Shown here piece after piece: positions 45,326 through 50,272 of a stretch of 64,000 bases of DNA. The notes beneath the pieces were generated by a model, which worked only from the letters and a program-made list of their open reading frames with translations, made no database searches and had not been told where the DNA came from. Within the stretch, counting starts at the first letter, position 1. Each line of letters opens with the position of its first letter. The stretch is from Actinomycetes bacterium. Its GTDB lineage: Bacteria > Actinomycetota > Thermoleophilia > BMS3ABIN01. A program made the translations under genes and the position numbers. The DNA is taken from the NCBI GenBank assembly GCA_021787475.1, contig JAJYLW010000012.1, forward strand, positions 1 through 64,000, given 5' to 3'.

Positions 45326-46534
45326 TCATCCAGTCGGCCGCTGGCCAAGTGTAAGGTCTGTGTCATGTGAATCCTTGCCGCGGGTATAAGTCACCTTGAT
45401 TTTATCCCCGGGCTTTTTCTGCACCAGGTAGGCAGTAATGTCTTCCATGGAGTTCATTGTCTGGCTATCAATTGCCGTGATTATGTCGCCCTGCTTCAGG
45501 CCGGCCTTGTCCGCCGGGCTGCCCGACTGAACCTCTGTCAGCAGCGCGCCGTGGTCCACGGAAAGCGCCTGTGTCTTGGCCAGATCTTTATCGACCGTTT
45601 GACCCACAACCCCCATGAAAGCGTACTGCACGTGCCCCGTCTTGATGATCTGGGCCTCCACCTTTTTGGCGATATTGATCGGCACGGCGAAGCCGACGCC
45701 CTCGGAGCCGCCGCTGGTTGTCGCAATCTGCTCGTTGAGGCCGATGACTTCTCCGCGGGAATTGAACAGCGGCCCGCCGCTGTTGCCGCGGTTGATGGCG
45801 GCGTCGGTCTGGATAGCATTATTGATCGTAAAGCCCTGCTGCGGCGATTCAACTGTGCGGTTGACGGCGCTGACAACTCCTGCAGTCAGTGAACTCGAGT
45901 AGACGCCGAAGGGACTGCCAATCGCAACCACCGGCTCGCCCACTTTCAGCTGGTCAGAGTCCCCGAGAACAGCCGGCACCAGATTGAGTCCCTTTGGATC
46001 CACTTTCAGCACGGCGACGTCGCTGCTGGTAAGGTCGTAGCCGACGACCTGCGCTTGCGCTGTCTTGCCGTCCCTGAACTTGACCTGCACCTTTGAAGCC
46101 TTTTCCGCCGGCGAGCCTCCAAATCCGCCCTGCTGGATGTCGCCGGTATTTGCCACTACATGGGCATTGGTCAGGATATAGCCATCTTTAGAAGCCACAA
46201 AGCCGGAACCGACTCCCTCCTGGGCCGGTTGCTGGCCGGTGTTAAAGAAACCGCCCTCGCCGCCCTGGGCCTGGAAGGTGGAATCGACCTCCACGGCGGA
46301 GTCGCCATACTTCTGGAAAATCTGCTCGGCGTTCATTGTCGTTCCGGCCGGCGGCGCCGACGCCTGCGTAAATTCCCGCGGCGCTGCCGCCCCTGTCTGC
46401 GCCGGCTGGGCCGGTGCAGCCGCCTGATTGCCGAGGCCGCCGATGTGAAGGGCAAAAGCAAGCAGCAGGAATATGGCCGCTCCGGCAACCCCTGCCGCTG
46501 TGTTGTTAATTAAACTTAGAATCTTGTCTTTCAT
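45326..46534 (-). CDS. htrA: HtrA/DegP-like serine protease with PDZ domain
   Basis: 402 residues. N-terminal membrane anchor (about 14-32) followed by a Pro/Ala/Gln linker; trypsin-like domain with the triad His in LTNAHVV, Asp in LTSSDVAVLKV, Ser in RGNSGGPLF; PDZ domain from about 310 (GVVGQTV, SPADKAGLKQGDIITAIDSQTMNSMEDI). An envelope quality-control protease. It lies downstream of a two-component system and has its own promoter and phased TTAAG boxes (46612-46680). Confidence 0.93.
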   Translation of the reverse strand: MKDKILSLINNTAAGVAGAAIFLLLAFALHIGGLGNQAAAPAQPAQTGAAAPREFTQASAPPAGTTMNAEQIFQKYGDSAVEVDSTFQAQGGEGGFFNTGQQPAQEGVGSGFVASKDGYILTNAHVVANTGDIQQGGFGGSPAEKASKVQVKFRDGKTAQAQVVGYDLTSSDVAVLKVDPKGLNLVPAVLGDSDQLKVGEPVVAIGSPFGVYSSSLTAGVVSAVNRTVESPQQGFTINNAIQTDAAINRGNSGGPLFNSRGEVIGLNEQIATTSGGSEGVGFAVPINIAKKVEAQIIKTGHVQYAFMGVVGQTVDKDLAKTQALSVDHGALLTEVQSGSPADKAGLKQGDIITAIDSQTMNSMEDITAYLVQKKPGDKIKVTYTRGKDSHDTDLTLGQRPTG

Positions 46535-46611
46535 AAATGCTACCTATATCAAAAATGAGCGCCGGAGGAAAATTTGATGATTGTCTGATGCCTCATACCG
46601 TACTGTAAACC

Positions 46612-46639
46612 ATTATACTCGCTACGGAACAAACTCCAA
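46612..46639 (-). promoter_or_regulatory. htrA promoter
   Basis: On the minus strand TTGGAG (46639-46634), 16-bp spacer, TATAAT (46617-46612), 78 bp before the htrA ATG. Confidence 0.6.
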
Positions 46640-46650
46640 TATAGAACCGG

Positions 46651-46676
46651 TTAAGAGAAATTAAGAAATGTTAAGT
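46651..46676 (-). promoter_or_regulatory. Three 10-bp-phased TTAAG boxes, response-regulator site
   Basis: The plus strand has TTAAG at 46651, 46661 and 46671, each exactly 10 bp apart; on the minus strand it reads TTAACA, TTAATT, TTAACC with 4-bp spacers, like the direct repeats bound by OmpR/PhoP-family regulators. It ends 11 bp upstream of the -35 box of htrA. The obvious binder is the regulator at 48702. Confidence 0.65.
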
Positions 46677-46707
46677 TGACATATCTACAAAGCATGCCAG
46701 AAAAAAC

Positions 46708-46834: not shown

Positions 46835-48613
46835 TTACATGGGAGCGCCAGCCCGGACAGGCGAGCCATTTGCCGGCAGGGTGACTGTGAAAGCGGCGCC
46901 GCTATCCGCGCATTCTGCCACAATATTGCCATTCATCAATCTGGCAAGCTCGTAAGCAATCGAAAGGCCAAGACCGGTTCCCCGCACCCGGCCGGCGCTG
47001 CGGCCGCGGTAAAATCGCTCAAATACGCGGTTCAATTCCTCTTTTGGAATCCCGGGACCCTGATTGGCCACGGTAAAGATGACCGCCCCGTCGTTGGCGG
47101 CGCCCCGGACCGTCACCGTTGAATGCGGCGGTGAGTATTTAAGGGCATTGTCCAAAAGGATCCTGACCAGCTGCGCAGTCCGGTCCCGGTCACAGATTGC
47201 CGCCAGGCCGCCAGGCAGGTTCGCTGTGTCAACGCGGGGATCGCTGTTTACCTGCTGGGCGGCAAACTCCCTGGCGACGGAATCGACGACCTCCTTAATC
47301 CCGACCCGGGTAGCATGGACGCTCATGGCGCCGGAATCCATCCGCGACAGATCAAGCAAGTCGCGCGCCAGGCCGGCAAGCCGGTCAACCTGTTCCCGCA
47401 TGGTGGCAATAAACTCTTTCTTGGTTCGCTCTTCGACATCTTCGTCCTGCAGAATCTCAAGAAATCCGCCTAATGAGAACAGAGGCGTCTTCAGCTCATG
47501 CGAAGCATTGGCAATGAAATCGCGGCGGGAACGCTCGAGTTTCACCTCCTGGCTCACATCCCTGATGACAATCAGTGATGACAATTCAGCCTGATCGGAA
47601 AGAAATGAGCTGCGCGCCGCCAATGCCTGCTCCCTTTCCAGCACAAACGTATCCTCCCGCTGCGGGTGTTCGGCGCTCATCGAGTTCCAGAGATCGAAAA
47701 TTTCCTCAGGCACGCACTCGCCGAGAGGCGACGGCGGTCTGATCTCTTTGCCCAGAAGCCGCTCCGCAGCTGGATTGGCGACGATGACCAGCCCTTCCGT
47801 ATCGATGCCGATCACGCCCTCGCTGAGGTCGTCGAGCAGCAGCTTGGCCCGCTTTTTCTCCACATCTATCCGCGCGAAAGCTGAGCCCAGCTTGCTGCCC
47901 ATTTCGTTAAAGGCGCCTGCCAGCTGACCCAGTTCATCCTGCGACCCAACCGGCACTTTGGTGTCGAAATCGCCCTGGGCGATCTGCAGGGCTCCCGCTT
48001 CGATGCCCCGAACCCGCCGCGCCAGGAAATGAGAGACCAGGTAAATCGCCACCAGCGCCAGCACCAGGGCCACACCGGCTGCAATCGCCAAAAGCCTCTG
48101 TACCAGCGAGACGGCCGATTCGACGCCGCTCATGGACTGCGAGACCACGATAACGCCGACGACACGGCTGCCGCTGGCCACCGGCACCGCCGACATGGCG
48201 TACTTCCGGCCGTCGTTCAAGTTAACAACGTTAGTGAGGGGACTGCGCTTATAAATGGCGCTCTTGGCAATAGAATAGTCGTTTGGATTATAAGCCTGGC
48301 CTTTAAGCGAATCCGCCACCAGGTTGCCGGCGCTGTCCATGAACAGGATGCGGGCGTCCGCCCTTTCCGCATACTCCTGGGTGAGCAGGTCCAGGTAAAC
48401 GGGTGACGCGCCCTGGTTTTCAGCCGCCAGAAAGCTCTCCGAGAACAGACTGGCGTATCTGCCAACGTCTGACTTTTTCTGATTGGTGAGGTTATTCTCA
48501 AGCTGGGGAACGACAGCCAAGTAAATAATCGCTACCACCATCACAAACACCAGCGAGAAGATGAGGCTGAGGCGGATGGCTATGCTGAAGCGGATTTTAT
48601 TTAGTATCGACAT
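46835..48613 (-). CDS. Sensor histidine kinase, PhoR/MprB-like
   Basis: 592 residues. Signal-anchor helix (about 11-32), an extracytoplasmic sensor domain to about 165, second helix (about 168-192), HAMP linker (SHFLARRVRGIEAGALQIAQGDFDTKVPV), a PAS-like domain (VIGIDTEGLVIVANPAAERLLG), HisKA with the phospho-His in RDFIANASHELKTPLFSLGG, and HATPase with DNALKYSPPHSTV, GPGIPKEELNRVFERFYRG and GTGLGLSI. It follows its regulator at 48702 by 88 bp. A signal that reports envelope stress is inferred from the adjacent htrA. Confidence 0.92.
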   Translation of the reverse strand: MSILNKIRFSIAIRLSLIFSLVFVMVVAIIYLAVVPQLENNLTNQKKSDVGRYASLFSESFLAAENQGASPVYLDLLTQEYAERADARILFMDSAGNLVADSLKGQAYNPNDYSIAKSAIYKRSPLTNVVNLNDGRKYAMSAVPVASGSRVVGVIVVSQSMSGVESAVSLVQRLLAIAAGVALVLALVAIYLVSHFLARRVRGIEAGALQIAQGDFDTKVPVGSQDELGQLAGAFNEMGSKLGSAFARIDVEKKRAKLLLDDLSEGVIGIDTEGLVIVANPAAERLLGKEIRPPSPLGECVPEEIFDLWNSMSAEHPQREDTFVLEREQALAARSSFLSDQAELSSLIVIRDVSQEVKLERSRRDFIANASHELKTPLFSLGGFLEILQDEDVEERTKKEFIATMREQVDRLAGLARDLLDLSRMDSGAMSVHATRVGIKEVVDSVAREFAAQQVNSDPRVDTANLPGGLAAICDRDRTAQLVRILLDNALKYSPPHSTVTVRGAANDGAVIFTVANQGPGIPKEELNRVFERFYRGRSAGRVRGTGLGLSIAYELARLMNGNIVAECADSGAAFTVTLPANGSPVRAGAPM

Positions 48614-48701: not shown

Positions 48702-49412
48702 CTACTGGATATCTCTGAACTTGTACCCTGCGCCTCTCACCGTAAATATGTATTCGGGATCATGTGGGTCAGGCTCAATCTTTTCCCGCAGGTGACGGAT
48801 GTGAACGTCAACGGTGCGCGGGTCCCGGAAATCCGAGTCCCCCCAAACCAGCTGCAGCAAGACCTCCCTGCCGAAAACGCGCCCCGGATGACCAACCAGC
48901 GTCTTGAGCAGCTCAAATTCCTTGTACGTTAGATCAACTTTCTCGTCACCGACATAAACATTCCGCTTTGGAAAATCGATTCGCAGCCTTTCCAGGTCGA
49001 TTATCTCCCTGGCCAGCTCGGCGGGCCTGCCCACCATCTGAGCCCGGCGCAGCTGCGCCTTTACCCGGCTGCGAAATTCCCTGATGCTAAACGGCTTTGT
49101 GATGTAATCGTCGGCGCCGATCTCAAGACCCAGCACCTTGTCAAACTCATCGGACTTGGCGGTGAGCATGATAATGGGAACGGTGCTCTGGGCCCTGATC
49201 AACCGGCAAACATCAATGCCGCTCATGCCCGGAAGCATGATATCAAGCACGATCAGGTCAAACTGCTGCTGATTAAATTTCTCCAGCGCTTCTTCGCCGT
49301 CGCGCGCCTGGACTATCTGGTATCCTTCTTTCTCCATAGGATAGGTAAGCAATTTCTGGATGGCCTCTTCGTCGTCCACCAGAAGTATCCTGGGAGCATT
49401 GCTTTCGCTCAA
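48702..49412 (-). CDS. OmpR-family response regulator
   Basis: 236 residues. Receiver domain ILLVDDEEAIQKLLTYPMEKEGY with the phospho-Asp in LIVLDIMLPGMSGIDV, Thr in IMLTAKSDE and Lys in TKPFSIREF; winged-helix output domain from about 140 (LTYKEFELLKTLVGHPGRVFGREVLLQLVWGDSDFRDPRTVDVHIRHLREKIEPDPHDPEYIFTVRGAGYKF). Co-transcribed with the kinase. Its probable target site is upstream of htrA at 46651; I see no equivalent boxes in front of its own gene. Confidence 0.95.
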   Translation of the reverse strand: MSESNAPRILLVDDEEAIQKLLTYPMEKEGYQIVQARDGEEALEKFNQQQFDLIVLDIMLPGMSGIDVCRLIRAQSTVPIIMLTAKSDEFDKVLGLEIGADDYITKPFSIREFRSRVKAQLRRAQMVGRPAELAREIIDLERLRIDFPKRNVYVGDEKVDLTYKEFELLKTLVGHPGRVFGREVLLQLVWGDSDFRDPRTVDVHIRHLREKIEPDPHDPEYIFTVRGAGYKFRDIQ

Positions 49413-49506
49413 ATTGTTCCTCCTTAAAAGCCCTCATCATTGATTTTAGACCTCGGTATCACACGCCACAAGCATAAAACCGGACAATGGACCGCTTCCC
49501 CGTCTT

Positions 49507-49540
49507 TCCAAAATCCAAAGTCCAAGTCCAATATCCACTA
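49507..49540 (+). repeat. Heptamer array (TCCAAAA type)
   Basis: TCCAAAA, TCCAAAG, TCCAAG (6 bp), TCCAATA, TCCACTA, ending at the stop side of the TIM-barrel gene. Confidence 0.6.
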
Positions 49541-50272
49541 TTAAGCAAGTCCGCGCTCGCGCAGCCAGAGAAGCCCCTCGTAAGCCTTTTGTCGCGGCAT
49601 CTCAAAAGTAATGGTAACTTCCTGGGAAAGCGTTTTTAAAGCCGCGAGAATGGGAGCAAAATCGATCCTGCCTTCTCCCAAGGGCAGGTGCAGATCCTCA
49701 TAGTACGTATCGCCTCCCACATTGTCATGAATATGGACATGGCCAATCCGGTCCGGATAGCTGCCAATGAAGTCCAGCGATTTGTTCCTTTCGCTCAGAA
49801 GCTCACTGTGGCCGATGTCCACTGTCAGCACCACATCAGGAAGAGCGCTTAGCAGCGGTTGCATGTCGGCGGCCGCCTCGGCTGTGTTCTCGCAGGCAAT
49901 CCGGGAGCCATAGCTGCCGGCAACCTCCTGCAGGCGCCCGATCTCGCGCAGCTTTGTTTCAATTGACCCCGGCGTGTTCGAGAACGGCGCCAGAATAGGA
50001 TGGATCGTGATTGTCCTCGGCTTAAACACGGCCGCGTATCTGACTGCTTCTTCGATTTTGGCAATTCCTTCCGGACTGTCCACCCTGAGATCAGGCCCGT
50101 GGGCAACAAAGAACATGCCGGCTTTCCGGGCCGCTTTTAATATCTGGCGCTCTTCCCGGCGGACTTTGTCAATCTCGTTCAGATTCAGGTCGGCGAAATC
50201 AAACCCGTGCCCGGCCAGGAAGGCAATGCCCTCGAGGCCGGCGGCCTGGCCGCCAAAATCAAGCTTTCCCAT
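49541..50272 (-). CDS. Sugar phosphate isomerase/epimerase, xylose-isomerase-like TIM barrel
   Basis: 243 residues. AP-endonuclease-2-type metal-binding pattern with the residues spread as usual: HGPDLRVDS, TITIHPILAPF, RIACENTAE, VVLTVDIGHSEL, IGHVHIHDN and EVTITFEMPR. These bind Zn or Mn in isomerases, epimerases and some EndoIV-like proteins. The N-terminus is about 20 residues shorter than average. No sugar pathway gene adjacent. Confidence 0.8.
   Translation of the reverse strand: MGKLDFGGQAAGLEGIAFLAGHGFDFADLNLNEIDKVRREERQILKAARKAGMFFVAHGPDLRVDSPEGIAKIEEAVRYAAVFKPRTITIHPILAPFSNTPGSIETKLREIGRLQEVAGSYGSRIACENTAEAAADMQPLLSALPDVVLTVDIGHSELLSERNKSLDFIGSYPDRIGHVHIHDNVGGDTYYEDLHLPLGEGRIDFAPILAALKTLSQEVTITFEMPRQKAYEGLLWLRERGLA

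Follow-up and report, generated by a model that had tools for sequence, protein, structure and literature searches.

A phased three-box site upstream of htrA as the predicted operator of an adjacent OmpR/PhoB-family two-component system in an uncultured actinobacterial family

The question raised by this locus is whether three short repeats in front of an htrA gene form an operator and, if they do, which regulator would read it and to what effect. The window, that is, the whole 64-kb stretch of DNA that was analysed, carries on one strand the genes for a response regulator, a sensor kinase, and a protease. An original prediction made from this DNA had joined them to the repeats as an envelope-stress circuit analogous to CssRS or MprAB.

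48702 to 49412, minus strand: OmpR/PhoB-family response regulator, with PF00072 receiver and PF00486 Trans_reg_C domains above their cut-offs
46835 to 48613, minus strand: sensor histidine kinase, with HAMP, HisKA, and HATPase_c domains, its extracytoplasmic region lying between membrane segments
45326 to 46534, minus strand: htrA, an HtrA-type serine protease with a trypsin-like domain, one PDZ domain, and one N-terminal membrane segment (Pfam, NCBIfam, and hydropathy)

The predicted link between the two-component system and htrA is supported, with the OmpR/PhoB-family regulator, a HAMP-type kinase, and the HtrA protease encoded in one conserved locus. The order regulator-kinase-htrA is kept in all of the window's family (f1) wherever the contig is long enough, as it is by the majority of another family (f3) of the class. 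The protease exceeds the cut-offs for PF13365 and PF13180, as a membrane-anchored trypsin-like/PDZ protease should, and falls under that of the Do subfamily (TIGR02037, 319 versus 416). The top NCBIfam matches of the regulator are YycF/WalR, RpaB, MtrA, and PhoB, every one of them under its equivalog cut-off (260.9 versus 340 bits for WalR/YycF and 249.7 versus 300 for MtrA), and its closest solved structures are RegX3 and MtrA. The kinase matches WalK best, at 322.2 bits against a cut-off of 725, and scores 161 against the 450 of the MtrB equivalog. The recognition helix of the regulator, RTVDVHIRHLREK, is the same in f1 and f3 up to its last residues. Metagenome assemblies labelled Thermoleophilia or Actinomycetes are the nearest named relatives.

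The repeats lie between the stop of the kinase gene (46835) and the start of htrA (46534), which are 300 bp apart. On the plus strand they read TTAAG at 46651, 46661, and 46671, with a period of exactly 10 bp, as had been predicted. On the minus strand, which codes for htrA, the boxes and the promoter are as follows.

46670 to 46674, minus strand: box 1, TTAAC, the distal half-site, 57 bp ahead of the -10; all of 16 relatives have TTAA
46660 to 46664, minus strand: box 2, TTAAT, 47 bp ahead of the -10; all of 16 relatives have TTAA
46650 to 46654, minus strand: box 3, TTAAC, the proximal half-site, with a C before it, 37 bp ahead of the -10; all of 16 relatives have CTTAAC, one of them after register correction
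46634 to 46639, minus strand: weak -35 element TTGGAG, matching 3 of 6 consensus bases, with a 16-bp spacer to the -10
46612 to 46617, minus strand: TATAAT, the -10 element, following G(A/G)G; invariant in 16 relatives, whose alignment was anchored on it

The gap between box 3 and the -35, previously put at 11 bp, measures 10 bp, and 32 bp separate the end of box 3 from the -10. What had been called a good promoter is good in its -10 only. Relatives have TTGGCC, TTGGCT, or TTGGAG as the -35, each column of TTGG (-22 to -19) being the same in at least 14 of 16, and it is because of this weak element that a consensus promoter scan did not find the htrA promoter. An Rfam search at the htrA locus returned no match.

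Conservation upstream of htrA in related genomes had been set beforehand as a test of the repeat, and all three boxes are kept at the 10-bp period in each of the 16 f1 genomes with readable intergenic DNA. All 48 half-sites read TTAA, and the distances of 57, 47, and 37 bp to the invariant TATAAT are constant in 15 of the 16; in the exception (L019) the three boxes are shifted together 12 bp upstream from the -10, with the period intact. Kinase identity among these genomes is as low as 61%, and across 8 divergent representatives pairwise identity is 1.00 at the TTAA positions versus 0.26 in the 28 bp upstream, a flank identity that between genera is at chance level. The same alignment revises the half-site: on the coding strand of htrA it is TTAA(C/T) that relatives share, and the C ahead of TTAAC, to which the TTAAG reading owes its G, differs among them at boxes 1 and 2. 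Two-box versions of period 10 occur in several genera of f3 (TTCAT-AATCC-TTAAT, TTCAC-AAGCC-TTAAC, and TTAAG-AAAGC-TTAAT), and in several other f3 genomes the boxes are degenerate or absent. Judged by this comparison of sequences, the three boxes are a genuine operator, and strong selection demonstrably acts on them as one phased unit bound up with the htrA promoter.

The triple site is also rare. A genome search for the triple repeat had been proposed, and in the form CTTAAY-N4-CTTAAY-N4-CTTAAY it gave a single exact match in the 1.84-Mb genome, the htrA operator itself; base composition leads to an expectation of 6e-4 exact TTAAG triples per genome. Within the window the TTAAG triple is the sole match with up to 2 mismatches allowed (0.05 expected from shuffles). 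In every family genome searched, htrA is the one match of a site profile at E<1e-5 (its own E is about 1e-6), apart from extra copies in G007; 7 genomes of the class from outside the family gave no match. Two other candidates in the genome were rejected: a 2-mismatch match at C15:3660, which falls within an apt-like phosphoribosyltransferase gene and is ascribed to chance, and C5:14530, a 10-bp tandem GTTAAACGAG repeat between isoleucyl-tRNA-synthetase-like and UspA-like genes, which has the wrong orientation and was not counted. A literature search for htrA together with TTAAG gave nothing.

The reading we prefer, and consider probable, is that the boxes are the predicted operator for the adjacent OmpR/PhoB-family regulator, activating htrA within an envelope-homeostasis regulon of the WalRK/MtrAB kind. 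What the comparison shows is the sites themselves, how they are conserved, spaced, and repeated, and which genes they are linked to; from the linkage, the geometry, and the conserved helix we infer that this regulator binds directly and activates, and what it responds to. The phosphorylated regulator (48702 to 49412) would bind head-to-tail, with one winged-helix domain per TTAAC half-site on a single helix face, the half-sites being centred at about -67, -57, and -47 relative to the predicted start site near 46605. OmpR/PhoB-family regulators typically use tandem head-to-tail half-sites 10-11 bp apart, and the three boxes have that form. Bound there, it could activate htrA by recruiting RNA polymerase to a promoter with a weak -35, while the kinase (46835 to 48613) would sense an envelope cue. 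The same regulator probably acts on two-box sites, in the same or a 9-bp closer position, at cell-wall hydrolase and other envelope genes, with htrA as the strongest member of the proposed regulon. Counting against this reading, the region upstream of the regulator gene has no triple box, and therefore no autoregulation is visible.

The alternative that survives best, although unlikely, is that another OmpR-family regulator such as PhoB binds the boxes and that the adjacent pair controls something else. TTAAC resembles the half-sites of Bacillus subtilis PhoP; with about 20 kinase matches in the window's genome, an OmpR-family regulator of similar specificity could bind, and a four-box site of the g6 genomes, in front of a zinc-ribbon gene, mixes 10- and 11-bp periods. 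However, the pstS promoter of the same genome has a clearly different set, TTAAC-N6-TTCAC-N6-TTTAC-N6-GTAAC, of period 11, a four-fold Pho box that is clear upstream of pstS in the lineage (L250, L251, L248), and a separate PhoB-like response regulator gene adjoins pst in a relative (L248). The pst promoter, where a PhoBR/PhoPR system would be expected to have an htrA-type operator, does not carry one, and the triple site consistently goes together with the adjacent regulator-kinase pair. Given the period-11 set at pstS, the 10-bp TTAAC code is not simply a Pho box, and the adjacent regulator is the better candidate.

The wider regulon was approached through promoter geometry, using a pattern of two boxes followed by 31-33 bp and TANNAT in 19 genomes, with the reversed pattern as control. 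There were 35 matches versus 1 in the control, and 19 versus 1 with htrA left out, of which 5 are scattered and may be chance. Counted without such conditions, two-box sites in the window's own genome are no more frequent than in the control (11 versus 12), so the signal is visible only once promoter geometry and conservation are applied. Two-box sites recur upstream of an SLT transglycosylase gene (G000, G002, G004; box 2 to -10 about 37-38 bp), a TPR gene next to mraZ (G008, G009, G012; 36 bp), and a DUF1573 lipoprotein locus (G010, G016, G017; 37 bp). At an NlpC/P60 endopeptidase gene, TTAAY-N5-TTAAY abuts a TTGAC-like -35 in seven genomes (G000, G001, G002, G007, G009, G010, G016), including the window's own (C1:13764). 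The encoded protein has weak similarity to the PcsB coiled coil, and an opposite-strand tRNA-Met gene lies between site and gene, which counts against the preferred reading. The conserved sites before NlpC/P60 and SLT genes would suit a putative hydrolase regulon of the WalRK type. A candidate GH3/NagZ-like site at C12:88472 is not claimed, the 130-aa fragment that was searched having no Pfam match.

These sites bear on the sign of regulation. That the boxes repress, or do both according to position, is a slightly weaker alternative than a different binder: the NlpC/P60 boxes abut the -35 and could block polymerase, whereas at htrA 10 bp separate the boxes from a poor -35 downstream of them, which is where an activator usually sits. 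Activation of htrA thus stays the preferred reading. They also bear on the idea of a dedicated secretion/envelope-stress switch like CssRS or MprAB with htrA as its sole direct target, which is less probable again. Each genome has its three-box site only at htrA, htrA is adjacent, and there is precedent for such adjacency and regulation in Firmicutes and Corynebacterium (PMC12826053, PMC12113857), but two-box sites of the same geometry recur outside htrA before orthologous envelope genes. Of the circuit first compared to CssRS and MprAB, comparative genomics upholds the link between the two-component system and htrA and makes the dedicated switch improbable. A chance repeat without function, in favour of which speak the commonness of AT-rich pentamers and a raw two-box count in this genome equal to its control, is refuted by perfect conservation across genera whose flanks are otherwise random.

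Because two-box sites with the same promoter geometry recur at cell-wall and envelope genes, a WalRK/MtrAB-like role is favoured over a CssRS/MprAB switch, and the circuit looks closer to WalRK/MtrAB (cell-wall upkeep) than to CssRS. More tentatively, the htrA-linked system could be the functional counterpart of WalRK/MtrAB in this Thermoleophilia lineage. One regulator with a 10-bp-period TTAAC code would then couple protein quality control, through the three boxes of htrA, to peptidoglycan remodelling by NlpC/P60 endopeptidase and lytic transglycosylase and to an mraZ-side locus, each with two boxes, and the number of boxes would determine how strongly a gene responds; we regard this fuller version as possible rather than probable.

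None of the known systems compared is an exact match to this operator and two-component system. Control of htrA by two-component systems is well documented, with CssRS, CiaRH, LisRK, and CroRS covered in a review (PMC12826053) that also places an htrA paralogue downstream of yycFG and yycHI in B. subtilis. WalR and MtrA, which have hydrolase-centred regulons (PMC9210968, PMC6265350), resemble the proteins of this locus most. WalRK (YycFG/VicRK) of Firmicutes gives the best NCBIfam matches of both proteins and shares the direct-repeat operator and, going by the predicted sites, hydrolase targets, but both proteins here are under the equivalog cut-offs and no walHIJ genes lie between kinase and htrA. 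The WalR box, TGTWAH-N5-TGTWAH with period 11 (PMC9210968), also differs from the TTAAC operator, which has period 10 and is triplicate at htrA. MtrAB of Actinomycetota, whose regulator is among the closest to that of the window, targets the ripA hydrolase and other wall genes. Unlike the present system, which is under the MtrA and MtrB cut-offs and linked to htrA, it uses repeats with a period of about 11, the Corynebacterium glutamicum MtrA half-site being n-A/G-T-a-A-C-a (PMC6265350).

MprAB of Corynebacterium and Mycobacterium is likewise an actinobacterial two-component system and directly controls htrA/pepD under envelope stress; here the pair is seen next to htrA. The C. glutamicum MprA motif is TKTTAAGAAM (PMC12113857), a loose single motif (its htrA site is TTTTCAGCAA), whereas the present operator is a strict three-fold phased repeat. 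Letter for letter, TTAAG boxes come nearest to TTTAAG-N5-TTTAAG, the repeat of streptococcal CiaRH, which has htrA among its most strongly regulated genes (PMC3091779). CiaR sites, however, have period 11 and an essential G in TTAAG and end 10 bp from the -10, in contrast to the period of 10, TTAAC core, 32-bp distance, and lack of a G requirement found here. Cyanobacterial RpaB recognizes HLR1, two (G/T)TTACA(T/A)(T/A) repeats 2 nt apart (PMC9241938). It shares the period of 10 and is close in score to the regulator, but differs in its core (TTACA versus TTAAC), in the regulator being under the cut-off, and in physiology.

Comparison alone has thus yielded an operator code for an uncultured family of actinobacteria that is precise and predictive, and a single purified protein with short oligonucleotides would suffice to test it. 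The sites suggest that protease-based envelope quality control and the control of cell-wall hydrolases come under one regulator, and three-box and two-box sites at fixed distances provide a clean natural series for relating box number and helical phase to promoter output.

Several minor observations concern neighbouring sequences. The htrA leaders of other f1 genera (L009, L011-L014, L017, L018, L060) contain strong hairpins, e.g., ATCGGGTGGCTTGGTCGGCCACCCGAT, that of L060 being followed by a T run. Leader regulation is possible there; the hairpins are absent from the window's clade and for that reason were not counted in the finding. A two-box TTAACACCGCTTAAT in one genome (L207, on G007:C3) lies 95 bp ahead of an FtsH-like membrane protease gene and 28 bp from GATAAT, a -10-like hexamer. 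The four-box promoter of the g6 genomes and G006 (L222, L223, L224, L068), with periods 10, 11, and 11, precedes a gene for a small cysteine-rich zinc-ribbon protein, has a leader of almost 300 nt, and may belong to a different OmpR-family regulator.

In G007 (L010, L060, L069, L058; contigs C101, C27, C111, C120), a 27-bp three-box core, GTTAATATTAGTTAATCTGGCTTAACC, is common to contig ends. At one junction the kinase side runs into a contig that encodes a tyrosine recombinase (PF00589) about 0.5 kb away, and at another a further contig runs into the htrA side. An integrative element thus seems to use the htrA operator of this genome for attachment and to leave box copies on both sides, which accounts for the extra copies. 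Upstream of the regulator gene, at 49413-49560 of the window, close relatives keep short scraps, e.g., AATTCCGAGGTCTACAATC, of one gene that is intact at that place in other genera. The scraps include TACAAT, which could serve as a -10, and the segment reads as a decayed gene with a remaining internal promoter-like piece.
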